Positions 3,142 through 18,224 of a DNA stretch of 23,849 nt are shown one piece after another. Origin of the DNA: Candidatus Pacearchaeota archaeon (GTDB lineage: Archaea > Nanoarchaeota > Nanoarchaeia > Pacearchaeales > GW2011-AR1); contig JALOBN010000006.1 in assembly GCA_023228245.1 (NCBI GenBank), forward strand, positions 1-23,849, written 5' to 3'. Under the pieces are notes generated by a model. That model ran no database searches. It was not told where the DNA came from and saw nothing but the letters and a program-made list of their open reading frames with translations. The translations under genes and the position numbers were made by a program. How positions within the stretch are numbered: position 1 is the first letter of the stretch; each line of letters opens with the position of its first letter.

Positions 3142-6100
3142 TTAGGCAGATGTCGTATATTTCGGATGTTTCGCATCGCCGCGACGCTTAACTTTCCCAG
3201 AAAATCTAAGCGCTTGGATGCGAGAACGGAACATCGCGTAACGGACAGTTGGATACACGGCTTTGTACAAATCTTTCAGGTCCATCTCAGGAGCGTTCGT
3301 GTTACGCTTTGCATACGAATCACGTTGCCTGTCCAGGATGTTCAATATTTTCGCGTCTAGCTTATCTATATATAGTTCGTCCAAGTCAAACGGCGATGCA
3401 TCGATGTTTTCTAGGACGCTTTCACGAAAAACCGCGTCTACCCGGTTCGAATCTACCGCATCCGACCATTCGCTTCCTATATATAGATCCTCTATCGTGG
3501 TATTCGGCTGGAACAAAAAACGACTGGTTAAATTATTATCGACGATCGCCTTCGCGACAGACACAGAGCTTGGAGGGCAACCGTTTGGATCTTTGAGTTC
3601 TATCACCTTATCGCCCAGGTAATTTATCTTCCATAGGTCTGCGCGAGGAACCAATATGATCTTGGGCTTAGACACCCTTCCAGAGCGCATGGTTGGTGCG
3701 ATACGCAGAGCACAGTTGGTCGCCTCGTCTGACGTGATCGATTCTAGTATCTCTTTTGCGCCTTCCAAGCCGGCGTGTCTCGCCGCACTCCAGAAAGGCA
3801 CGGCGAACGAGCTGTCATGCAGTGCCAGTACGCCGTAGAAGTCAACGTCGAGTCCTCTGGCAACTGCAGCGTTGAGCACGGCAAGATTGATGCTTCCAGC
3901 TCTGAAGTTCTTCTCCTGGGCTATTTCGCCACCTTCCATGGAGATGTGGGACTTCTCACCGAACTCGTGTGCCAGGTAGGACTGCTTAGACTTGGAGCCT
4001 GAGAACACGAGGATTGGCCGGTCAACCTTAGAGTCTGCCGGGCCGGCGATGAGCTTAATGACTTCACGAAGCTTGGATTGTTGCCTACGGTATATGTTTT
4101 TCATATCCTTTTGGTCGTCCTGGTCGATCGGCACCACGGCGTAATTTCGAGCGTACTTGAATTTGGGTATGCTGATCACCGTGGGATTCTCATCTATCTT
4201 GGATGCGAACAGCTCCGCCAGGGTCGCGCCTATGACCACGATCTTCTTACTGCCATAGATCCAATCCATGTTCATCAGGGGTACACGCGCATCGCCGATT
4301 AGGTACATAGAGCGGTATCCGTTGCCTGTATTCGACCAGTGCACTGGTCGATCAGTGTATGGTACAAGTAGTGCCGTCACAACCTGTCTCAGATCGATGT
4401 CACCTTCTCCCTCGGCTGAATGGTACATGTTGTCTAGTGCGCTTAGGAGTTCTATTATCTCGGTATGCGATCGCTCCTTGTGGTCACGCACCACAAACTT
4501 TGTGATCGACTCACCCACTTCTTTAGGCGACATGTTTCGATCACGCATGTAGTTGAGTGCTATGCTGATGTCTTTTACCTTCTCCAATACGGTGAGCAGC
4601 ACTCTGTCGTATGCAGATTTGCGTTTCTTTTCTTCTATCTGCAGTATGACCGACTCGACCGCAGGCATCACATGAATTAGGTTGTTTATTATGTGGACTT
4701 CACTATAAACCATCTTTACTTTAGCCAGTTCCGGCGAGCCTGGGAAGAAGTAGTCCAGGGTCGGGTCTTCGTCTATTACCGTGAAGTCTCGTTTTATGAT
4801 GTTTATATTGTCGATATTATTTACGACGGTGAATACGTACTTCGCGTGCTCCGTGGCGAACCTGAGCACGTAGTAAGGACAGTATTCATCGGGCACGTCG
4901 TTCTTTGTCAGTACTGGGATGTTGTGAGTGAGGTTCACTGCAATGCCCTGCATCTGGAAGAATCCCATCTGTCCTTCTTCGTCCTTCCGGCTTTCGTCTG
5001 GTTTGAGTTTGCACTTGGTGCAGTCATGGTTCTTCCTGCACATTCCTGGCCGGCCTTTCCCTTCTACCACCACGGCGCCCTTTCCGCCCAGGTCCCTAAA
5101 GATCTTGATGGCATGGTCGATGATCGAGTATCGATGGGTCAGGTAGTTTCCGCTGCCGTTTTTCACAAGTTGCTTTACGCTCCAGTGAGATTTGCCTATC
5201 CTGGGCGGACCCCTCACGGCGTCTACCTTATCATCAGGTAGTACGTCGGGTAGCTCGTCTACTTCTATACGGCTATCAACGATTTCAGCAGTGGTGTCGT
5301 GCTGCCCGGATCCTGGGAGGTATTTTTCCAGCACTTCGTCTGGGATCTCATGACCATCGTCCAGGGCCGCCTCGACCGCCTGCCAAAACTTCTCGCCCTT
5401 CAGGCAACCCTCCACCGCTTCGTCGCACTTTATGATGCCATGCTTGAGCGCTACCAGCTCCAGCCCCGACCCACCGGTGTGGCACCTGAAACATGACCAC
5501 ACGTTCTTCTTGGTGTCTACATGGAAGTTCTCTCCATTATCGGAACCATGAAAAGGATGCTCGCCTTTTGCCGTTGCGCCAATCCACCGGGATATAGGCT
5601 CGGGCATTGCCACGTCTTCACATTTTATGTAAGAAGAAATATTTTTGTATGCATCGTCGTCAACGGGCGTGTCCCGCTTCCCTTTCGGGCTCTTCTTCAC
5701 CCGAATTACGACGCGCTTCTTGTCCTTCGAGTGAGGGATGCAGTTCATCACTTCCCAGAATTGTTCTTTCGTTATGGTGGCGATCGGGACATCATTGATG
5801 ACTGTGTAGACGCCGCCTGAGTGATGGTGGCTGCCGGGCGACACAACGTAAAAAGGGGTATCTGGTGTGCCGGCCTGGAGTGACCCGAGCTGCACATCTT
5901 CGTGTTCCGGATCAGTAAATACTACTTTTTCGTGTAGCTCCTCTGAGATGAAGTAGTAGTGGACACCCTCACCGTTCGCCCGGCCCGTGCGTACTTGGAA
6001 CGTGTCGGGCCACTTCGCGAAGTCTGCGCCCAGCTCCTTGAAGCGGCTCAGGTGGTCAGCATCGAATACGATGAGTCCGCCATAAGCGGTTATGACACCA

Positions 6101-6294
6101 TAATTGCCGTCGCGCCGTCTCCATCCACTGAGGAATGGAGAGTCGAAAGAGTGTATGTTGGCGTTCTTTCCTTGTTTCTTCCACGACTTCCCAGCGATGG
6201 GCTTTTTTCCTGACGAATCGTCTCCTGGGGTCGGTTTCTCTATGGCGAGAAAGCGAAAAAGTAGGTTGCGTAGCTGTGGGGGGATTTCAATCAA
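3142..6294 (-). CDS. PrimPol primase / zinc finger / XPD-like SF2 helicase fusion
   Basis: A 1050-aa replication protein. Residues 1-185 form an archaeo-eukaryotic-type bifunctional primase-polymerase: catalytic VFDAD (76-80) and the His motif SPGSHHH (152-158). A zinc finger follows, with H246, H249, C268 and C271 (HPFHG...CFRC). From about 355 there is an SF2 helicase: Walker A GPPRIGKS (362-369), four Cys spaced as an XPD-type Fe-S cluster (C419, C425, C428, C472, the last in CPYY), Walker B VIDEDP (506-511), GATL (689-692), motif V ARGLDV (812-817) and a divergent motif VI at 860-870. A winged helix is likely at 975-1045. It would prime and unwind the element's DNA. The start is TTG 6294, supported by GAGGTG six bases upstream; no ATG or GTG fits. 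It is the last gene of the operon. Confidence 0.85.
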   Translation of the reverse strand: MIEIPPQLRNLLFRFLAIEKPTPGDDSSGKKPIAGKSWKKQGKNANIHSFDSPFLSGWRRRDGNYGVITAYGGLIVFDADHLSRFKELGADFAKWPDTFQVRTGRANGEGVHYYFISEELHEKVVFTDPEHEDVQLGSLQAGTPDTPFYVVSPGSHHHSGGVYTVINDVPIATITKEQFWEVMNCIPHSKDKKRVVIRVKKSPKGKRDTPVDDDAYKNISSYIKCEDVAMPEPISRWIGATAKGEHPFHGSDNGENFHVDTKKNVWSCFRCHTGGSGLELVALKHGIIKCDEAVEGCLKGEKFWQAVEAALDDGHEIPDEVLEKYLPGSGQHDTTAEIVDSRIEVDELPDVLPDDKVDAVRGPPRIGKSHWSVKQLVKNGSGNYLTHRYSIIDHAIKIFRDLGGKGAVVVEGKGRPGMCRKNHDCTKCKLKPDESRKDEEGQMGFFQMQGIAVNLTHNIPVLTKNDVPDEYCPYYVLRFATEHAKYVFTVVNNIDNINIIKRDFTVIDEDPTLDYFFPGSPELAKVKMVYSEVHIINNLIHVMPAVESVILQIEEKKRKSAYDRVLLTVLEKVKDISIALNYMRDRNMSPKEVGESITKFVVRDHKERSHTEIIELLSALDNMYHSAEGEGDIDLRQVVTALLVPYTDRPVHWSNTGNGYRSMYLIGDARVPLMNMDWIYGSKKIVVIGATLAELFASKIDENPTVISIPKFKYARNYAVVPIDQDDQKDMKNIYRRQQSKLREVIKLIAGPADSKVDRPILVFSGSKSKQSYLAHEFGEKSHISMEGGEIAQEKNFRAGSINLAVLNAAVARGLDVDFYGVLALHDSSFAVPFWSAARHAGLEGAKEILESITSDEATNCALRIAPTMRSGRVSKPKIILVPRADLWKINYLGDKVIELKDPNGCPPSSVSVAKAIVDNNLTSRFLFQPNTTIEDLYIGSEWSDAVDSNRVDAVFRESVLENIDASPFDLDELYIDKLDAKILNILDRQRDSYAKRNTNAPEMDLKDLYKAVYPTVRYAMFRSRIQALRFSGKVKRRGDAKHPKYTTSA

Positions 6295-6336: not shown

Positions 6337-7746
6337 TTATCTACGGCGGGTGACGGTGGGGCGGTCTCCAAAAACTAAGGTCTCACCGAACACTTTGACG
6401 TATATATTTTTCCGCTCCATACTATGCCTACTTACATACTTACCTGAATCGCTAAAGTCTATAACGTAACCATATTTCTTCCCCGGTGCAGGTCGCAATA
6501 CCCTACCTATACGCTGTATCGTGGCTATCTCCGACGTACCACCGGCAGCATTGATGAATGCATCCATATTAGGAATGTCAGCGCCTTCTCCGAGGAGCGT
6601 GGAGATCAGGCATAGTATCTTCTTTGCTTTGAAATCTGTTATCACGTCTTCCCGTTTCTTCTCCCCGTCCACGCCGGTAAGCAGAGCGCTTCCCGGTATC
6701 ATCCTATTGAGTATCTGCCCGTGTACTACCTGAGTAACGTGTACGTAAACACTCCCTCCCTTGCTAGTGGCTTTACTTACCATCGCAGCGATTTTTTTGT
6801 TCCTGCCGTCGTTCTTCACCACGCCCCACTTATAGGCGGCGGCATACGTGTTACCCAGTACAGTAGGCTTTGGTGCGGTGAGGAAGATGAACTTAGGCCG
6901 GGCGAGGAAGCCTTGATCTACCAGATCAGTTGCGGTAGTGGTGGAAATGACGTGTCCCAGGCCACCTACGAATTTCAGGTCCGCGCCGTCCTTGCGGTTC
7001 TCTGGGGTTGCACTCAAGCCTAGTCGGTAGAAGGCGGGGCAGGACATGGAGACGGTCCAGAAAGTCTTAGCTGCGAATCGATGTACTTCGTCTACACATA
7101 GGAACTTAAACTGATCGAGTGATACTTCTTTGTTTTTCAGCCTCGCAGCCAATGTCTGTGCCGTCGCTATTGTGATGCTTCCCATGTCGCGTTTAGTGTC
7201 ATGATAGTAGAACGGCTCTACTCCAAGCGCGCTTCTTACTCCTCCTATCCACTGCTTCGCGAGGGTAGTGTTGGGTACTACTACTATCGTCTGTGCGCCT
7301 AACATTTGGATGATCTTAAGAGAACTGAGAGATTTTCCCCCGCCCGTAGGACTCTTCATGATGCATCCCCGGCCACTCTCTACCCACTTCATAGCTTCGA
7401 GTATGTCTTGCACCTGATAGGGCCGGAGGTCCGGGCCATTCCACGCCCAGGTATACTCTTGTGGTGGCTTGGGTGGGAGTTCTACGGTGACGTTGTGACC
7501 TAATTTAGTAAGTATTGCCTCTACTAAAGCGAGCAATCCAATGGGTACGTAGAGCATGCCGTTGTGTGCCCGGCGCATCATGTGATAGCGACCGTCCCAC
7601 GATGTGCCATACTTGGGTGAGTACTCCGCACCGGGTACATCGTAGCTCGTGGCGTCTACTATGATCTTAAGTTCTTCCGGTGATAGTCCAGCGTCGCTAA
7701 AGTAGACGTTGGAGCGTTTGGTGCCGCCGCGAAGAGTTATGTCCAT
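6337..7746 (-). CDS. SF2 DNA helicase, UvsW/XPB-like
   Basis: A 469-aa ATP-dependent helicase. Motifs in order: RPYQ (108-111), Walker A SPTGGGKS (132-139), DEVH (219-222), SAT (245-247), LGEGAD (385-390) and QRIGRVLRP (411-419). Both RecA-like domains are complete, so the enzyme should be active. The N-terminal 100 residues resemble the substrate-recognition domain of phage UvsW-type helicases, which act on branched DNA in recombination-dependent replication and fork restart; that specific role is inferred. The start ATG 7746 lies inside the methyltransferase gene's last codons (10-bp overlap) and 42 bp separate its stop from the primase start. Confidence 0.9.
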   Translation of the reverse strand: MDITLRGGTKRSNVYFSDAGLSPEELKIIVDATSYDVPGAEYSPKYGTSWDGRYHMMRRAHNGMLYVPIGLLALVEAILTKLGHNVTVELPPKPPQEYTWAWNGPDLRPYQVQDILEAMKWVESGRGCIMKSPTGGGKSLSSLKIIQMLGAQTIVVVPNTTLAKQWIGGVRSALGVEPFYYHDTKRDMGSITIATAQTLAARLKNKEVSLDQFKFLCVDEVHRFAAKTFWTVSMSCPAFYRLGLSATPENRKDGADLKFVGGLGHVISTTTATDLVDQGFLARPKFIFLTAPKPTVLGNTYAAAYKWGVVKNDGRNKKIAAMVSKATSKGGSVYVHVTQVVHGQILNRMIPGSALLTGVDGEKKREDVITDFKAKKILCLISTLLGEGADIPNMDAFINAAGGTSEIATIQRIGRVLRPAPGKKYGYVIDFSDSGKYVSRHSMERKNIYVKVFGETLVFGDRPTVTRRR

Positions 7747-9239
7747 AAGTCGTCCTCGTCTGTGTCAGTGGTCGGAAAGATGCGTCGAGTGGCTATTTCA
7801 CAGTATTCCTCGCTCTGTTCAATCAGGATGTAATGAAAACCCTCTTGTATTGCTGCGAGTCCGGTCGTGCCCGATCCCGCGAACGGGTCCAAGATAATGC
7901 CGCCAGGTGGAGTGATTAGGCGGCATAGGTAGCGCATGAGAGCTAAGGGTTTCATGGTGGGATGAGTTGAACCGTTTCTTTCTGCTCGGCTCGCCTTAGC
8001 TTGGTATATGAGGGGTGGCAAATCTTCTTCGGTTATAAGGCAATGCTGGAAAAATCTAGCTGTAGAACCGGAATCTGCATATTCCTGGCTTTCATGATTG
8101 TCAGATAACCAGTTAGTCCCTTCGACTTTTGCGGCTTTGCTTTCAGCGGTTCGTTTTCCGGTGATGCTGCTTTGAGGGAACATTCTCAACACGGAATCTT
8201 TGCCGGGACTGTGCTCTGGGTAGGATAAAATCAGATTTGCTGGGAATCGGCCCGGTGCGTTATAATTCGTTCTTTCGTTTGAATCCTTGCCGTAGATCAT
8301 GTTATCGCGTTGTCCACTCCCAAAATCTCGGTGCTGGTTTTTATTTTTTGATTCTTTTTCATCATCTTGACTGGCGAATCCCACTCGACATCCGTCTATA
8401 TTTAACCCGCCGACGCCCCACTTAATGATGTTCTCGGCGATGGTGCGGCCATCGAGAGGCTTGCGAAAGAGCCACCAGTCTTCGTGTGCGGGTTTAAGGG
8501 CGGTGCCAAATCCGGCCCATTGTTTGGCGAGAGAAGTGGCCGGAGCTGTAATGTCTATATTTGCCCTGGTTCCTTCTTTTGATTCACCGATCTGGTATAA
8601 TTCAGTTGGTGCGGTATATCCTGCGTTTCCGATTACGTTCCGTTCGGCCTCGATTCGCTCTATCAGTTCATCAAAGCGATCGTCTAAATTTAATATATCC
8701 TTCAATATTAGATAATTCTCTTTGATAGGCAATTGAACGCCAGATAAACGACCTTCCCACCAAGAATAAGCGGTGTTTGTGCCCATCTTTCTGTCAATTT
8801 CTGACATAGAAAGCCCAAGGGCCAAACGCCTCTCTCTCAGATATGCTCCAAAATCAGGATATTGTAAATTTCTTCCATTCAATCGGTCTATCGCCTTGTC
8901 TATTGATAGCGATTTCGGAAATCCACTTCCAAACACATGAGCTATTTTATCCCTGGGTTCCCAACCCGCCTCTTCCCATGCCATCCCCGTCCAATGGGAG
9001 GTTCTAGGGAGCGCCCACACAAGTGCATGGCCGCCTGGCTTGATTACTCGTAGACATTCACTGGCAATATCAGTCATCCACGTTATCCAGACTTTGCGGC
9101 CACCTCTGTCTTTGTCCCATTCTTTGCCCATGAAGGCAATTCCAGCGGGGGGATCTGTCACAATCGCATCTATGCTATCTTCTGGAAGTGCCGGCAGTTC
9201 TTCTTTGCAATCTCCGTGAATGATTCGATCAAACCTCAT
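7737..9239 (-). CDS. DNA (N4-cytosine/N6-adenine) methyltransferase with inserted HTH
   Basis: A 500-aa SAM-dependent DNA methyltransferase. Residue numbers count from MVDG at 9251. Catalytic motif IV is TDPPAG (32-37) near the N-terminus and the SAM-binding motif DPFAGSG (455-461) is near the C-terminus, the order of the beta class; HPTMKP (430-435) is also present. Motif IV reads DPPA rather than DPPY/DPPW, a variant met in phage-type enzymes. An XRE-like helix-turn-helix (about 135-190) sits between them and probably belongs to the target-recognition part. Bases 8050-8900, the middle of the gene, are richer in A+T than its ends, suggesting a swapped module. The start is ATG 9239 (ATGA overlap, GGTGG five bases upstream). 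No cognate restriction gene is recognised, so self-protection against host restriction is likely. Confidence 0.9.
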   Translation of the reverse strand: MRFDRIIHGDCKEELPALPEDSIDAIVTDPPAGIAFMGKEWDKDRGGRKVWITWMTDIASECLRVIKPGGHALVWALPRTSHWTGMAWEEAGWEPRDKIAHVFGSGFPKSLSIDKAIDRLNGRNLQYPDFGAYLRERRLALGLSMSEIDRKMGTNTAYSWWEGRLSGVQLPIKENYLILKDILNLDDRFDELIERIEAERNVIGNAGYTAPTELYQIGESKEGTRANIDITAPATSLAKQWAGFGTALKPAHEDWWLFRKPLDGRTIAENIIKWGVGGLNIDGCRVGFASQDDEKESKNKNQHRDFGSGQRDNMIYGKDSNERTNYNAPGRFPANLILSYPEHSPGKDSVLRMFPQSSITGKRTAESKAAKVEGTNWLSDNHESQEYADSGSTARFFQHCLITEEDLPPLIYQAKASRAERNGSTHPTMKPLALMRYLCRLITPPGGIILDPFAGSGTTGLAAIQEGFHYILIEQSEEYCEIATRRIFPTTDTDEDDLWT

Positions 9240-9421
9240 ACCGTCCACCATATCAACCGTCTACTATTGTACTCTTTCATGCAGGCCGCCTCACCGCACC
9301 GCTCTAACGACTTCAGTGATCTCTGTACCGCTACTTGCGTAATTCCAAGAGCCGTGCTGAGCTGATGAGATGTGAGTGGGCCGAACACATGCAAAAAAGG
9401 ATAAATTTCTGTCTGGCTCAC
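9236..9421 (-). CDS. Small winged-helix DNA-binding protein
   Basis: A 61-aa protein whose residues 17-41 (LTSHQLSTALGITQVAVQRS) form a helix-turn-helix, followed by a short wing (NSRRLIWW). It resembles the MarR/ArsR-type winged helix reduced to its DNA-binding part. The start is GTG 9421, overlapping the previous stop as GTGA, with GAGGAG eight bases upstream; a GTG at 9427 is too close to that site. It overlaps the methyltransferase start. It may regulate this operon; no target site is identified. Confidence 0.7.
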   Translation of the reverse strand: MSQTEIYPFLHVFGPLTSHQLSTALGITQVAVQRSLKSLERCGEAACMKEYNSRRLIWWTV

Positions 9422-10056
9422 GTCCACAACTCCTCCTCGCTCTTCTTGGCTTGCTTCAGCTCTTCCTCGCTGAGAGTCGATGTTACCTCGTCGTCCTCAT
9501 CGGCGGCGTCTTCTGGTATAATGACTTTACTCGCTACTTTGGTGTGGTCGAGTTTCAGTTCCTTGGCAATCTCCTGTATATCCTCCTTGGTGATCCCTAA
9601 TGCGAATTTGATCGCGGCTTTTGTTGCGCTCGTGTCCGCCGTTGCTACCAGGTTGTCCTGTCCTATAGGCTTCTTCCTTCGCAATGTGTCGCTCCGGAGG
9701 CTGATAGTGCGTGCGCCGGGCACTCCACCGATCACGACATGTGCGGATACAACGCATACATATGCATATACTGGAACGCGGGATGTGGTGTCCTTTCGGT
9801 AGTGCTGTGATGGGGTCATGGGTGCATCCGCATGCGAGCCCGAATAGGTATCTACATGTTCGGTCTCGCTCTCCTCTCGCACCAAGATCTTCTCAAAATG
9901 CTTTAGCTCGGTGGTATATTCGCTCAGGCCTCCTTGGTGAGCCAATATCATCCACCCCTCCTTGTCAATATCGAAGGTTATTTTTCCTTTGAAATCCATC
10001 ATGAAGAAGTGCGATTCGATCTTTTTGAAATCTAATCGTTTTAATTCGGAGCGCAC
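9418..10056 (-). CDS. Possible Rad52-like single-strand annealing protein
   Basis: A 212-aa protein. Residues about 95-140 predict a beta hairpin region (VYAYVCVVSAHVVIG, then ISLRSD) followed by a helix with ATADTSATKAAIKFALGI. This resembles the A.TDA.KRA...FGIG signature of Rad52/Erf-type annealing proteins. The match is by eye and partial. The C-terminus is acidic (EDAADEDDE). Position supports the idea: it lies between a PD-(D/E)XK nuclease and a UvsW-like helicase, after a possible ssDNA-binding protein. The start is GTG 10056 with GAGGTG just upstream, overlapping the nuclease gene by 16 bp. Confidence 0.5.
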   Translation of the reverse strand: MRSELKRLDFKKIESHFFMMDFKGKITFDIDKEGWMILAHQGGLSEYTTELKHFEKILVREESETEHVDTYSGSHADAPMTPSQHYRKDTTSRVPVYAYVCVVSAHVVIGGVPGARTISLRSDTLRRKKPIGQDNLVATADTSATKAAIKFALGITKEDIQEIAKELKLDHTKVASKVIIPEDAADEDDEVTSTLSEEELKQAKKSEEELWT

Positions 10057-10697
10057 GTTTTCACCTCTTCTCTGAGTTGATCACAACAAAGCACTACTTT
10101 GTCTATTGGGCGTTCGTATTGTGCATATCTTGCTATGCTTCTACACGAATTTGTTATGCTCAGGGAAGATTTCGCGTTTATCGAATCCCCCGGCACGAGC
10201 CACACATGGAGCGGTTTCAAGTTGTCGCGGTTGTCGAATCCGAGTAGTAAGAAATAATCCGCTACGTTGTTTTGGTTAATCGGAAATGCCCATCTTTGAT
10301 AACGGTGGTTTTTGTCGTGTTGTCTAAGACAAGAAGATTTTACGTCTATTTTGAATCCACGCCCACATACGAAGTCGTAACCTGGATTGCCATATGGCAT
10401 TCGCTCAATATGGTCAAAATATTTTGATAGTGCGCGTTCTGCGACGTGGACTCCAAGATATGAACTGCATTGGGTAGATGTTGCGTATGGGCGTGTGATC
10501 CCCAATTTGTGGTTTCTGGTGCGCTGTAGTGTATTGTATCTGGTTCTGTTTTTGTGTCTCCATTCGATCATTTTTGAGTAATTACATTCAATGCAATATG
10601 ATCGGATCTGGCCACTTCGATTAATGTAAAATTTGGAGAGTGGTAAATCATTACCACACCCCAAACAACGCTTATAGTTCGTCGTCCTTTCCGTCAT
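10041..10697 (-). CDS. Zinc-finger PD-(D/E)XK endonuclease
   Basis: A 218-aa nuclease. The N-terminus holds a four-Cys zinc finger (C11, C14, C35, C38) of the kind common in phage endonucleases (KRCLGCGNDLPLSKFY). The core has E87 in the first helix, then YD (107-108) and IDVK (117-120), the acidic and D-x-K residues of the PD-(D/E)XK fold. It is richer in A+T than the genes on either side, consistent with late insertion of a free-standing homing-type nuclease. The alternative is a recombination or branch-resolving nuclease of this operon. The start ATG 10697 has GAGGTG seven bases upstream and lies within the preceding gene. Confidence 0.7.
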   Translation of the reverse strand: MTERTTNYKRCLGCGNDLPLSKFYINRSGQIRSYCIECNYSKMIEWRHKNRTRYNTLQRTRNHKLGITRPYATSTQCSSYLGVHVAERALSKYFDHIERMPYGNPGYDFVCGRGFKIDVKSSCLRQHDKNHRYQRWAFPINQNNVADYFLLLGFDNRDNLKPLHVWLVPGDSINAKSSLSITNSCRSIARYAQYERPIDKVVLCCDQLREEVKTCAPN

Positions 10698-12174: not shown

Positions 12175-12453
12175 ATGAAACATAGTCATGTGAAGGCAAT
12201 TGCCCGGAGAGCCGCTATGAAGGAATGGGTGAGCAGGAATGATGATGTATTGCATGGGGCATTATCGGAATCTGATGCACATGTCTTTACGGTGGCATTC
12301 AACATGGGGTGGAATGCATGCACAAAATTGGTCCGTTGCCCTAGAAAGACAGGCACTCAATTGAAGTGCATTCGCGAGATGTATCGAGTGGACAACCAGG
12401 CGCACGGATCAATTAAATATTTCGACACGTATAATTTAAATGAGGTTTACTGA
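12175..12453 (+). CDS. Small basic protein of unknown function
   Basis: A 92-aa basic protein, first gene of the plus-strand operon. It has a phage-like AFNMGWNAC turn (about 41-49) and two Cys (49, 55) but no recognised domain. The start is ATG 12175 because the TATA palindrome is centred 27 nt upstream, giving a leaderless mRNA; a GTG at 12169 in the same frame would lie upstream of the predicted transcription start. Its stop overlaps the TFB-like start as TGATG, so the two are coupled and a joint role in early gene control is possible. Confidence 0.7.
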   Translation: MKHSHVKAIARRAAMKEWVSRNDDVLHGALSESDAHVFTVAFNMGWNACTKLVRCPRKTGTQLKCIREMYRVDNQAHGSIKYFDTYNLNEVY

Positions 12454-13103
12454 TGAGAAAACGTCGGTATGCGACCGGGGTTAAGGAGCTAATCGCAATA
12501 GCCAGAGCCACGGGCACGAGTCGTGATACGACCAGGGAGGCAGTCAAGCTGTTCAGGAACACGCTCCGGGCAAAGGCAACGCCGGGCGATGTGGTATTTG
12601 GGCGAAGCTACATAGTATTTGAGATCGCGTCTCTCTATATAGCATCGCGCGGAACCCAGGATGAACACTCTATGAAGGAGTATGTCAGTGCCGCAAGTGA
12701 GTTATCGGAGTCGCGGCAACACATAAGCATAAGAGAGTGCAACTGTGCGGTGACTGCACAGAGGGAGCTGGTGGGGGTGTGTCAATATGCGTATACTAGT
12801 GTTGATAAGTACGTTCGGATAATAACGACACGCGCTGGTCTGAGCAACGATACGTGTGATAAAGCGCTTGAGTTGGTTGATCGGTACGGCGACGTTCCAA
12901 GCGTCCAAAAACGCCACCCAAGGTCGATCGCGGCGGGTATGATCTATGTCGCGACAGTGACATATAAGACCGATACAATTACACAGCCCGAGCTAAGCAA
13001 GTACTCGGGGGCGAGTCTGGTGACCATCAGGCAGGTGGCAAACGCGGTGAGAAAGAAGATGACGACTAAGAAGAGTATCAGGTTTACCGTGAGGAAGGCA
13101 TGA
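12453..13103 (+). CDS. TFB (TFIIB)-like transcription factor core
   Basis: A 216-aa protein made of two cyclin folds (about 8-105 and 112-204). The second is clearest: R-S-I-A-A-G-M-I-Y-V-A (157-167), then a helix-turn-helix QPELSKYSGASLVTIRQV (178-195), the TFB pattern of GxSPtxxAaaaiYxA followed by evaxxagVtxvTIRnr. Archaeal TFB binds TBP-TATA and the BRE through these folds and recruits RNA polymerase through an N-terminal zinc ribbon and B-reader. Both are missing: the protein starts directly at the first cyclin fold. It may therefore redirect promoter choice, compete with host TFB, or work with another recruiter. ATG 12453 has GAGGT six bases upstream and overlaps the previous stop. Confidence 0.8.
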   Translation: MRKRRYATGVKELIAIARATGTSRDTTREAVKLFRNTLRAKATPGDVVFGRSYIVFEIASLYIASRGTQDEHSMKEYVSAASELSESRQHISIRECNCAVTAQRELVGVCQYAYTSVDKYVRIITTRAGLSNDTCDKALELVDRYGDVPSVQKRHPRSIAAGMIYVATVTYKTDTITQPELSKYSGASLVTIRQVANAVRKKMTTKKSIRFTVRKA

Positions 13104-13225
13104 GGGTTGAGCACGCACGAGTAAAGCGTCCCTGGCCACCGATTCACGTCGAGATGCTGCACCACCCGCGCAGGTGGTTCGAGGACAGAGAGATGGTGAG
13201 GAGAAGATGGGGGGGAGTGAAATGA
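13100..13225 (+). CDS. Very small Arg/His/Trp-rich protein between TFB-like and methyltransferase genes
   Basis: A 41-aa frame that fits exactly between its neighbours. ATG 13100 overlaps the TFB-like stop (ATGA) with GAGGAAGG upstream, and its TGA overlaps ATG 13222 of the methyltransferase (ATGA). This double coupling, plus the absence of any other use for the 118 bp, argues for a real gene. The product is basic and rich in Arg, His and Trp (RPWPPIHVEMLHHPRRWF). Function unknown; nucleic-acid binding is possible. Confidence 0.6.
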   Translation: MRVEHARVKRPWPPIHVEMLHHPRRWFEDREMVRRRWGGVK

Positions 13226-13863
13226 GAGCACTTGACTTATTTTGTTGCGCCGGTGGTGCATCGCGTGGATTAGAACTTGCCGGATTCGATGATATTGTTG
13301 GTGTTGATATAGTTGATCAGCCGCGTTATCCATACGAGTTTATCAATTGTGATGTTATGAAATTGGAAGAATCATTCGACGAGGACTTTTTGTGGGACTT
13401 TGATTATATATGGGCGTCGCCTCCGTGTCAAGCATTTACAATTGCGACGATGCAATGGAAAAACAAAGGACGATCTTATCCGGATTTAATTGAATATACG
13501 AGAAATATGTTGAAATCAACAGGAAAATTATATACAATCGAAAACGTACCTCAAGCACCACTCATTAATCCGGTAATGCTGTGTGGTACGATGTTCGGCA
13601 TGCGGATGTATCGCCATAGGATATTCGAAAGCAATTTCAGTGTCCGTCAACCCGATCATGGTAAGCACCTGACTAAGAATGCTAAACTAGGACGGCCCAT
13701 TGACGGTGATCAATTTATTCAGATGGTCGGTCACTTCAGTGGCGTGCAGCGTGCTCGTGATATGACCGGTTGCCAGTGGATGAATCGTTATGAATTGGCG
13801 CAATGCGTTCCACCCGCATATTCCCGTTACATAGCAACTGAGATGATGAGAGGCAAGAAATGA
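13222..13863 (+). CDS. C5-cytosine DNA methyltransferase, phage type
   Basis: A 213-aa SAM-dependent enzyme that methylates carbon 5 of cytosine. Motif I is DLFCCAGGAS (5-14), motif IV SPPCQAFT (66-73) with catalytic Cys69, motif VI ENV (107-109), motif VIII RHR (131-133), and the end GCQWMNRYELAQCVPPAYSRYI (from 183) is the phage-type motif IX-X region. The target-recognition region is short, which makes the enzyme much smaller than bacterial Dcm-type enzymes but complete for the phage subfamily. Its codons are richer in A+T than its neighbours', suggesting separate acquisition. ATG 13222 has GGGGGAG upstream. It probably shields the element's DNA from host nucleases. Confidence 0.9.
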   Translation: MRALDLFCCAGGASRGLELAGFDDIVGVDIVDQPRYPYEFINCDVMKLEESFDEDFLWDFDYIWASPPCQAFTIATMQWKNKGRSYPDLIEYTRNMLKSTGKLYTIENVPQAPLINPVMLCGTMFGMRMYRHRIFESNFSVRQPDHGKHLTKNAKLGRPIDGDQFIQMVGHFSGVQRARDMTGCQWMNRYELAQCVPPAYSRYIATEMMRGKK

Positions 13864-16470: not shown

Positions 16471-16650
16471 TCATGTTTTTAGTAGTCGCATAGATGACAC
16501 TGTTCCATTTATGGCTTCCATTTTGCTTCTCCATTCTTGTTCTTGTTCTGGTGTCATTCCTCTGGGCTTGCATGCCAGTAGGCCATTGATCATTTCCATT
16601 TTTGGCCCTGATACACCAGGTCCACCGGTCTTACCTATTGGCCCAGTCAT
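16471..16650 (-). CDS. Small protein with collagen-like Gly-X-Y N-terminus
   Basis: A 59-aa protein. Residues 3-17 are five uninterrupted Gly-X-Y triplets (GPI GKT GGP GVS GPK), followed by a charged predicted helix with Met/Glu/Gln (EQEQEWRSKMEAI). Five triplets are too few for a stable triple helix alone but could help trimerise the helix. ATG 16650 shares a base with the helicase stop (TGATG) and GGGTGAT lies four bases upstream. It ends the operon 18562-16471. Function unknown. Confidence 0.6.
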   Translation of the reverse strand: MTGPIGKTGGPGVSGPKMEMINGLLACKPRGMTPEQEQEWRSKMEAINGTVSSMRLLKT

Positions 16651-18224
16651 CAAATCACCCTCAGCGCCTCTCTAAAGTAAGGCGGATATAGCATCCTATT
16701 TTGACCGTAATGCGCACTGAATTTACCATCACATATCACGGTGGTACTGAAGTCTTCGGGTCCTCTAGTGCATCGGCTCGCGGCTTGCACCACATCGACT
16801 GCCACCCCAGTATTATACCAGAGTTTACCATCAAATGCATTGCGAGCACTTATCCAGGAGTCTTTGTATGGTGGGTAGAATACGTTTGCGATGATATTTA
16901 GTGGGTAGTCCGGGCCGTCGCATGAGATACCTTCGTTCCGCTCTACCGCGAGTAGTATCGTGTTGCTGCCAGCTCTCCATGCATTCATAGTGCGTTCCCT
17001 ACCAAGTGCGCCGCTCTCCTGGAGGATCACGTTGTCGAACAGTTCCACCGGTACGAGCGGATGTCGATGGAATGCATGAGTTTCAAAACCATCGTAAATC
17101 AAATTTGCCACTCCATACGTGCCACAATGTACGAGAGTGTGCTTCCCTTGTGCATACTTCGTGTGGTACTGAGCTATCTTCAGTGCCATGTAAGGAGCCC
17201 ATTTTTCGCGGTCCTGGTACGTCATCTTCATGGTGGCCTGGGTGCCCGGCGCAATCGGATCATAGTACACGAGCCTGTGATTCACGTCTGTGGGGTGTGG
17301 TATGGACACGCTCTTGTAGTCTTTTGTCAGGAGTGCGGTGGTGGGAGTGCCGGACGCGAGCACAACGAATTGCAGTTTCTCTATGAGCGACTGGAAGAGC
17401 ACTTTGCCTTCTATGAGCCTGAAATGCCTCTTCTCGTCTATGATGTATGGCACATGCTGATCTAAGAATCCCATGCACCGCGCGCACTTACGTGCGTCTC
17501 TGCTCACAGCATTATACTTCCTCGTTGCTTTTTTAAGTTCCGAGAGTGCTTTGCGATCGCCTTTCTTCGCATCTTCTTTCAGTTCTGTGATCAGGCGTTC
17601 TAGTCTGGATGCTTCCACTACTAGCTTATGGTAGTATATGGGTAGGCTGCCAGGCAAATCGTCTACATCGACTTCGGGTGGTATGAGCATATCGACTCTA
17701 TTGAGGAGCTTATCTTCTGTGGTGGCGGACTCGTCTATAAACAGACCTCTGCATCGCGCGTTTATGCTGGGGTCGCTTAGGTATCGGTCGAATGTCGTCG
17801 CGCCGTAAGGAGATTCTATAAAAGTGTGGTAGTCGAGCCTGTAAGGGCACATGGCGCATTGGATGAATCCCTCTTCGGACGAACTGAATGGGCAATCATC
17901 CGCCGTAGCGGTAGGCTCTACCAAGCACTTGTAGTTACCTTTACCTACAAGTACAGGAAGATCCGGAAACTGTGCGCGAAGCTGGTCAGAGACGAGCTGT
18001 ACCTGGGGAGAAGTATATGTGAGATAGTTGTAGTCTAACTCATGGTGGAGGAATAATATCGTTGCATATATATCTAAGCTCTTACCAGAGGCAGTTGGCG
18101 CACGCAACTCGATCACCTTTTGTCCCTCTTCGATTAGGTCTAGCATGCCGTTGATGGCGTCCAACTGGCCTGGTCTAAACGATTCGTATGGATTGTACCT
18201 TTGCAGATCGCGAGTTTTGATCAT
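16650..18224 (-). CDS. XPD/DinG-like Fe-S SF2 helicase
   Basis: A 524-aa helicase. Walker A is APTASGKS (42-49). GKGNYKC (94-100) opens an Fe-S domain with C100, C111, C123 and C126 (CAMCPYR), as in XPD/DinG. Motif II reads FIDESA (162-167) rather than DEAH. SGTP lies in the second half and motif VI is QAASRCTRGPED (480-491). Family members unwind DNA 5' to 3' from single-stranded gaps. It is a second Fe-S helicase besides the primase fusion, in a separate operon, and may serve repair or R-loop removal. ATG 18224 overlaps the previous stop (ATGA) with GGAGG upstream. Confidence 0.85.
   Translation of the reverse strand: MIKTRDLQRYNPYESFRPGQLDAINGMLDLIEEGQKVIELRAPTASGKSLDIYATILFLHHELDYNYLTYTSPQVQLVSDQLRAQFPDLPVLVGKGNYKCLVEPTATADDCPFSSSEEGFIQCAMCPYRLDYHTFIESPYGATTFDRYLSDPSINARCRGLFIDESATTEDKLLNRVDMLIPPEVDVDDLPGSLPIYYHKLVVEASRLERLITELKEDAKKGDRKALSELKKATRKYNAVSRDARKCARCMGFLDQHVPYIIDEKRHFRLIEGKVLFQSLIEKLQFVVLASGTPTTALLTKDYKSVSIPHPTDVNHRLVYYDPIAPGTQATMKMTYQDREKWAPYMALKIAQYHTKYAQGKHTLVHCGTYGVANLIYDGFETHAFHRHPLVPVELFDNVILQESGALGRERTMNAWRAGSNTILLAVERNEGISCDGPDYPLNIIANVFYPPYKDSWISARNAFDGKLWYNTGVAVDVVQAASRCTRGPEDFSTTVICDGKFSAHYGQNRMLYPPYFREALRVI

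Follow-up and report, generated by a model that had tools for sequence, protein, structure and literature searches.

A predicted XPD/DinG-type helicase joined to a PrimPol in a probable mobile element of an archaeon

The fusion protein and its domains

The DNA analysed here, positions 1 to 23,849 of contig JALOBN010000006.1 from a Candidatus Pacearchaeota archaeon (the window, meaning the whole 23,849-nt stretch), is probably a mobile genetic element of an archaeon. Among its genes is an open reading frame (ORF), 3142-6294(-), to whose protein all residue numbers refer, and in which a PrimPol domain of the archaeo-eukaryotic primase (AEP) type, a zinc ribbon, a predicted superfamily 2 (SF2) helicase and a winged helix follow one another (Table 1). 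The first-pass annotation of this stretch had read the ORF as a PrimPol, a zinc finger and an XPD-like Fe-S helicase in a single polypeptide, and the motifs that it named are all present in the order it gave. Its assignment of the first two domains also holds: the PrimPol domain, which contains the motifs VFDAD (D78, D80) and SPGSHHH (152-158), is matched by Pfam, while the zinc ribbon, with HPFH (246-249) and CFRC (268-271), scores 22.1 bits against PF01807 (Zn_ribbon_DnaG; E 1.3e-4), under the curated cut-off of 24.9. Among solved structures, the profile of the protein family described below matched the DnaG zinc domain 1d0q_A at E 3.4e-6 and pRN1 ORF904 (1rni_A) at E 1.3e-7; positions 929-1017 of that profile matched RPA32C (9f29_C; E 1.3e-4). 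The C-terminal winged helix had not been mentioned in the first-pass annotation. The PrimPol motif positions D78, D80 and H112 are all kept in the window protein and recur in 81/86, 84/86 and 85/86 rows, respectively, of the PrimPol alignment.

Table 1. Features of the window discussed in the text, with coordinates and evidence
Feature	Position in window	Strand	Evidence or remark
PrimPol - CHC2-like zinc ribbon - XPD/DinG-like helicase - winged helix protein	3142..6294	-	1050 aa, TTG start
PrimPol (archaeo-eukaryotic primase) domain, residues 27-173	5776..6216	-	Pfam PF09250 E 1e-10, 42.7 bits vs cut-off 22.8
CHC2-like zinc ribbon, residues 240-294, presumed ligands H246, H249, C268, C271	5413..5577	-	PF01807; 1d0q_A; column counts
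XPD/DinG-like SF2 helicase, residues 335-905	3580..5292	-	
Motif I (Walker A) GPPRIGKS, residues 362-369	5188..5211	-	P364, R365, K368 invariant 32/32
Putative Fe-S domain span C419-C425-C428 ... C472PYY	4879..5040	-	Four Cys invariant 32/32; hhalign vs XPD
Motif II (Walker B) VIDEDP, residues 506-511	4762..4779	-	D508, E509 invariant; hhalign pairs with XPD DEAH
Motif V ARGLDV, residues 812-817	3844..3861	-	R813, G814, D816 invariant
Presumed motif VI DEATNCALR, residues 856-864, divergent, by eye	3703..3729	-	D856, E857, T859, N860, L863, R864 invariant
C-terminal winged helix, about residues 960-1050	3145..3417	-	RPA32C profile match; helices and wing strands in model
UvsW/XPB-like SF2 helicase	6337..7746	-	phrog_16 E 1.1e-71, PF04851; directly upstream, same strand and gene run as fusion
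Second, separate (unfused) XPD-family helicase	16650..18224	-	phrog_2488 E 1.8e-42, PF13307, hhalign to XPD 97.5% over 478 columns
TFB-like (TFIIB repeat) protein	12453-13103	+	PF00382 E 2.7e-10
Endonuclease VII-like protein	10041-10697	-	In or near replication gene run
N4/N6 DNA methyltransferase	7737-9251	-	In or near replication gene run
C5 methyltransferase	13174-13863	+	In or near replication gene run

Searched as a single sequence, the helicase half matched nothing convincingly in Pfam, PHROGs, NCBIfam or PDB sequences; TnsA_C (E 0.024), then an aldolase (E 0.056), came highest. A structural model of residues 335-1050 returned XPD/DinG structures at Foldseek ranks 1-18 (E 4.4e-14 to 9.6e-8), followed by Hna (2.8e-6) and UvrB (3.0e-6), and no superfamily 3 (SF3) or DnaB structure stood among the best 50 matches listed, an absence that proves nothing. 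Of the folds that the first-pass annotation had set against each other (XPD-type, or SF3, DnaB or another helicase), it is XPD/DinG as which this region came out. In profile comparison (hhalign) the helicase half matched XPD with a probability of 94% from motif I to motif II, all four cysteines being paired. Indeed, C419, C425, C428 and C472 each align with a cysteine invariant in ten archaeal XPDs, which were selected from 26 loci by DEAH and CP[YF] (16 others were dropped), the fourth cysteine therefore being fixed by the selection. Residues 335-905 hold five cysteines, four of them invariant across the aligned family, and the Fe-S-type cysteines that the first-pass annotation had placed between motifs I and II are these four. 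Sequence profiles and model thus identify the helicase half as an SF2 helicase of XPD/DinG type whose insert bears four cysteines, at which a [4Fe-4S] cluster is predicted.

Other helicases gave different results in the same comparison. SF3 (probability 0.4% against a set of 14 SF3-like relatives) was rejected as the identity of the helicase half, the C-terminal half matching the XPD/DinG SF2 fold, and UvsW was likewise disfavoured (0.4%). XPB reached 52% over 55 columns, which is tentatively read as the shared SF2 core. E. coli DinG, used as a single sequence, gave no match (0.8%), and the Pfam family DEAD_2 was reached weakly by 3/32 family members (best E 0.0056), the window protein not being matched. 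In the model, residues from about 535 to 655 are mainly helical, a candidate for the arch-type insert that the XPD/DinG family has between motifs II and III.

Relatives of the protein and of its motor

A protein search with residues 330-1050 returned 39 proteins including that of the window (P0001), of which 35 bear the Prim-Pol domain (PF09250); no such precomputed domain is present in P0003, P0023, P0024 and P0039 (4/39). Candidates in this search had 0.55 to 1.75 times the length of the window protein, and short standalone helicases could not appear. The family alignment comprises 32 proteins (the window protein and 31 relatives), seven shorter relatives being left out; at E<=1, 31 of its members match PF09250 and 28 the zinc ribbon. 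Invariant in 32/32 are P364, R365, K368, C419, C425, C428, C472, P473, Y474, D508, E509, R813, G814, D816 and R864, and the seven relatives outside the alignment have the four cysteines as well, apart from P0024, whose sequence misses the first three positions. That the motif residues and four of the five cysteines are invariant indicates that the helicase motifs are more than chance. As judged from these alignments, therefore, the fusion is conserved. L109 4580-6829 encodes a standalone protein of 750 aa that is related to the window helicase (hhalign 97.6%); by eye, it is without the cysteine cluster.

The N-terminal half has a wider distribution. Viral contigs scanned with the single sequence, and phage records searched by tblastn, gave no match; a scan of the viral contigs with the family alignment gave 50 loci, most of which match only about residues 1-350 or less. 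Sorted by profile class, 27 of these loci carry an SF3-like helicase, in line with the first-pass annotation, which had stated that PrimPols of viruses and plasmids are usually fused to SF3 or DnaB-like helicases; two are of the XPD type (L002 and L005), 12 are other, and nine are short or cut. Of the same 50 loci, 14 had served to build the SF3 profile, which was then extended once, and near-copies occur among the loci. In 392 genomes drawn from the phylum of Methanoculleus sediminis, the family profile scored E<=0.001 in at least 61, and the helicase part was matched in at least three of these (G001, G002 and G100) and over one short stretch in G079; at most two candidates were scored per genome, and the counts are lower bounds. 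These profile comparisons indicate that an XPD-type motor is swapped into the known PrimPol-CHC2 module, in which SF3 helicases are frequent. On a tree of the PrimPol-CHC2 part the XPD label needs four changes, against a mean of 25 when shuffled, and the starred branches force two. This is a quick tree of 75 of the 89 rows (14 near-copies or fragments were dropped) with several long branches; given these and the two forced changes, a single origin of the swap is not established. The PrimPol-CHC2 proteins of L003 (9995-12694), L004, L006 and L007 have an N-terminal half close to the XPD type and a C-terminal part that fits neither the XPD-type nor the SF3 profile.

Four genome loci carry the fusion: two in a metagenome-assembled genome of Methanocellaceae, a third, truncated at its end, in a contig that binning assigned to Syntrophorhabdus, and the fourth in the isolate M. 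sediminis. The Syntrophorhabdus-binned copy (L053) looks identical to one from Methanocellaceae (L052) over its length and is probably misbinned. The M. sediminis protein (L054), of 1276 aa, is a divergent version; paired with its relative from G100 (L095), it matches the helicase of the window family at an hhalign probability of 100% (E 1.4e-57), and the pair does not reach XPD (1.7%, 0.2%). Its PrimPol motifs are visible by eye and are not called by Pfam, and tblastn with this protein found no match in plasmids and phages. It is encoded in an element of about 14.8 kb (L054 6225-21074) that is bounded by two copies of a tRNA-Val(cac) gene, with an exact repeat of 45 bp; a second PrimPol-like ORF (7270-8502, by eye) adjoins the fusion gene there. 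The 69-kb viral contig of L002 encodes PolB, a UvsW-like helicase (L066 2970-4418) and dCMP deaminase, 45 of its 80 called ORFs having been scanned; in that scan no capsid or terminase was named among the best 25 of 71 PHROGs and the best 25 of 35 Pfam families.

A similar arrangement is found on haloarchaeal plasmids. A tblastn search with the relative L096 led to 16 plasmid records, almost all of them from haloarchaea. Three plasmids, complete and circular (8.9 kb, from Halorientalis, 10.8 kb and 14.0 kb), encode a single large protein each, of 1062, 1246 and 1764 aa, respectively. On these small plasmids (L156, L157 and L159) the large protein is annotated as a MarR regulator or as hypothetical, and an XPD/DinG-like helicase stands behind different primase types: the 14-kb protein has a DnaG core over the Pfam cut-off, the 10.8-kb protein one under it, and the 8.9-kb protein no Pfam primase and, by eye, an AEP. 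Among the best 120 of 294 related proteins, 12 bear PF08275 (DnaG core) and five PF09250. In 27 of the 34 other annotated genes of the three plasmids no helicase, polymerase or Rep domain was found at E<=0.01, and the domains present include integrases, helix-turn-helix and restriction domains and a toxin. Against XPD, a set of ten such haloarchaeal helicases reaches 96% (E 1.7e-9) in the stretch from motif I to motif II, and against XPB 87%. P0141 shares 61% identity with the helicase region of the 8.9-kb plasmid protein. For its model (33 sequences, predicted local distance difference test score 74.5), XPD/DinG structures occupy Foldseek ranks 1-18 (2.8e-11 to 9.9e-6) and SecA follows (1.0e-5), but the VIA Z scores do not set it apart from RecQ-type helicases and SecA. 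The putative Fe-S span of the haloarchaeal group holds three invariant cysteines, large plasmids carry standalone versions of 633-649 aa, and tblastn of the haloarchaeal protein in phages gave no match. Haloarchaeal and window helicases match at 69% and 87%, in each case confined to the span from motif I to motif II; because of this restriction and of the XPB score, we call the haloarchaeal case parallel and not proven kin.

Known systems share parts of this architecture. ORF904 of the Sulfolobus plasmid pRN1 carries an SF3 helicase. Like the PrimPol-helicases of its type, the window protein is one polypeptide with an N-terminal PrimPol and a helicase, but it has an XPD/DinG-type SF2 motor and a CHC2-like zinc ribbon instead; ORF904 appears as a plasmid replication protein in passages of PMC10345425. 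With the XPD/DinG Fe-S helicases the window protein shares the best fold match, the profile from motif I to II and the four aligned cysteines, whereas it differs in being fused to a primase, in its place on a mobile element, in a divergent motif VI and in lying too far off for Pfam DEAD_2. WP_014271915 of the Methanothrix harundinacea plasmid pH6Ac shares the PrimPol-CHC2 half (30.5% identity over window residues 2-320) and, unlike the window protein, then runs into a different P-loop ATPase (GEQGSGKS). A main survey of AEP fusions is that of Iyer et al. 2005. The All3500-family PrimPols, described in passages of Kazlauskas et al. 2018 (PMC5862659), likewise combine a mobile-element primase with an SF2-type helicase, one that is remote. 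Passages of the same paper give as helicase partners of such primases MCM, RepA, DnaB, SF3 D5-like, VirE, DUF927, DUF3987 and remote UL9-like SF2 proteins, and the words XPD and Rad3 are absent from its main text. Fusions of DinG/RAD3-like helicases to RadC/JAB domains are mentioned in a passage of PMC5512222. No report of a primase-XPD fusion was found in the titles and abstract openings searched or in passages of PMC5862659, PMC10345425 and PMC5512222; most subscription papers and the survey of Iyer et al. lie outside that search, and an earlier mention is possible.

Other genes of the window

The TFB-like factor suggests an archaeal host for the element. The unfused helicase at 16650-18224(-), which has clustered cysteines by eye, is XPD-like, and the element in the window thus carries two helicases of the XPD family. 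No DNA polymerase was recognised in the window. At about 12200-12450 gene direction flips and GC skew switches sign, a possible origin or transcription divide.

Role of the fusion protein

We consider it fairly probable that the 1050-aa protein serves a mobile element of archaea, a virus or plasmid, as its replication primase-helicase. This is supported by the order of the domains and by the place of the motor, which elsewhere belongs to SF3-like helicases. The first-pass annotation had proposed an XPD-type 5'-3' helicase in a replicative role, a reading supported in part. The winged helix and the zinc ribbon would bind element DNA at or near the origin, and the XPD-type motor would load on a single strand and unwind in the 5'-3' direction, with the predicted [4Fe-4S] cluster as a wedge. 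As the duplex opens the PrimPol would lay primers, which an element or host DNA polymerase would then extend. This reading calls for caution on several points. The third metal-binding acid column of the PrimPol is E/D in 70/86 rows (three rows without PrimPol being excluded) and Ser138 (codon at window 5881-5883) in the window protein and eight others. This serine is common to the window's clade, in part of which an insert adjoins the column, such that another acid could serve. The canonical motif VI of the XPD/DinG family carries a GR pair; here, motif VI is divergent, DEATNCALR having been placed by eye, with R864 invariant and no GR pair. Furthermore, the two other SF2 helicases in the window mean that a replication role of the fusion is not assigned by elimination.

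It could be argued that the protein is an origin initiator, whose winged helix binds the origin, whose XPD-type motor melts it locally and whose PrimPol primes once, while the fork is left to host MCM or to the UvsW-like helicase of the element. This is the main rival, and a distinctly less probable one. The C-terminal winged helix itself fits such a role, one behind a primase and ATPase having been proposed for origin recognition in the PrimQH family in a passage of PMC5862659, as does the UvsW-like helicase, which adjoins the fusion in the window and has a counterpart in the 69-kb relative. The three small haloarchaeal plasmids, however, have no second helicase in the 27 of 34 other genes scanned, though a host helicase is always available. 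The same plasmids bear on the proposal that the protein is a repair or restart enzyme, in which repriming falls to the PrimPol and the clearing of damage or stalled forks to the XPD-type helicase. Cellular PrimPols act in repriming, which counts for this proposal. So does the role of XPD-family helicases in genome stability, given in the abstract of PMC6300356. Nevertheless, the large protein is the only candidate replication protein seen in the plasmid genes scanned, and the fusion helicase sits where SF3-like helicases stand behind the same N-terminal module, such that we regard a repair or restart function as unlikely. It is very improbable, finally, that the cysteines bind zinc or nothing and that the helicase half is a translocase without unwinding, like some DinG relatives that have no cluster. 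The divergent motif VI, the three invariant cysteines of the haloarchaeal group and the distant standalone L109, without a cluster by eye, would be consistent with this, but the four cysteines lie at XPD positions and are invariant in 32/32.

Beyond the window, we propose more tentatively, as a possibility that falls a little short of even, that the XPD/DinG type is a separate and widespread class of replicative helicase in archaeal viruses and plasmids. In methanogen and haloarchaeal elements it would be joined to different primases (a PF09250 PrimPol with CHC2, a DnaG core and, by eye, another AEP), having replaced motors such as SF3 in the PrimPol-CHC2 module. Primases of mobile elements are often joined to a helicase, and an XPD/DinG-type Fe-S helicase in that place would, if true, carry the family beyond repair and transcription into replication. 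XPD/DinG-family helicases are non-ring motors, and the same reading would raise the question of how such a motor drives a fork. The parallel fusion on haloarchaeal plasmids of <15 kb, with cultured hosts, offers a testable system. A repair-type motor may thus have been recruited for the copying of archaeal viruses and plasmids.

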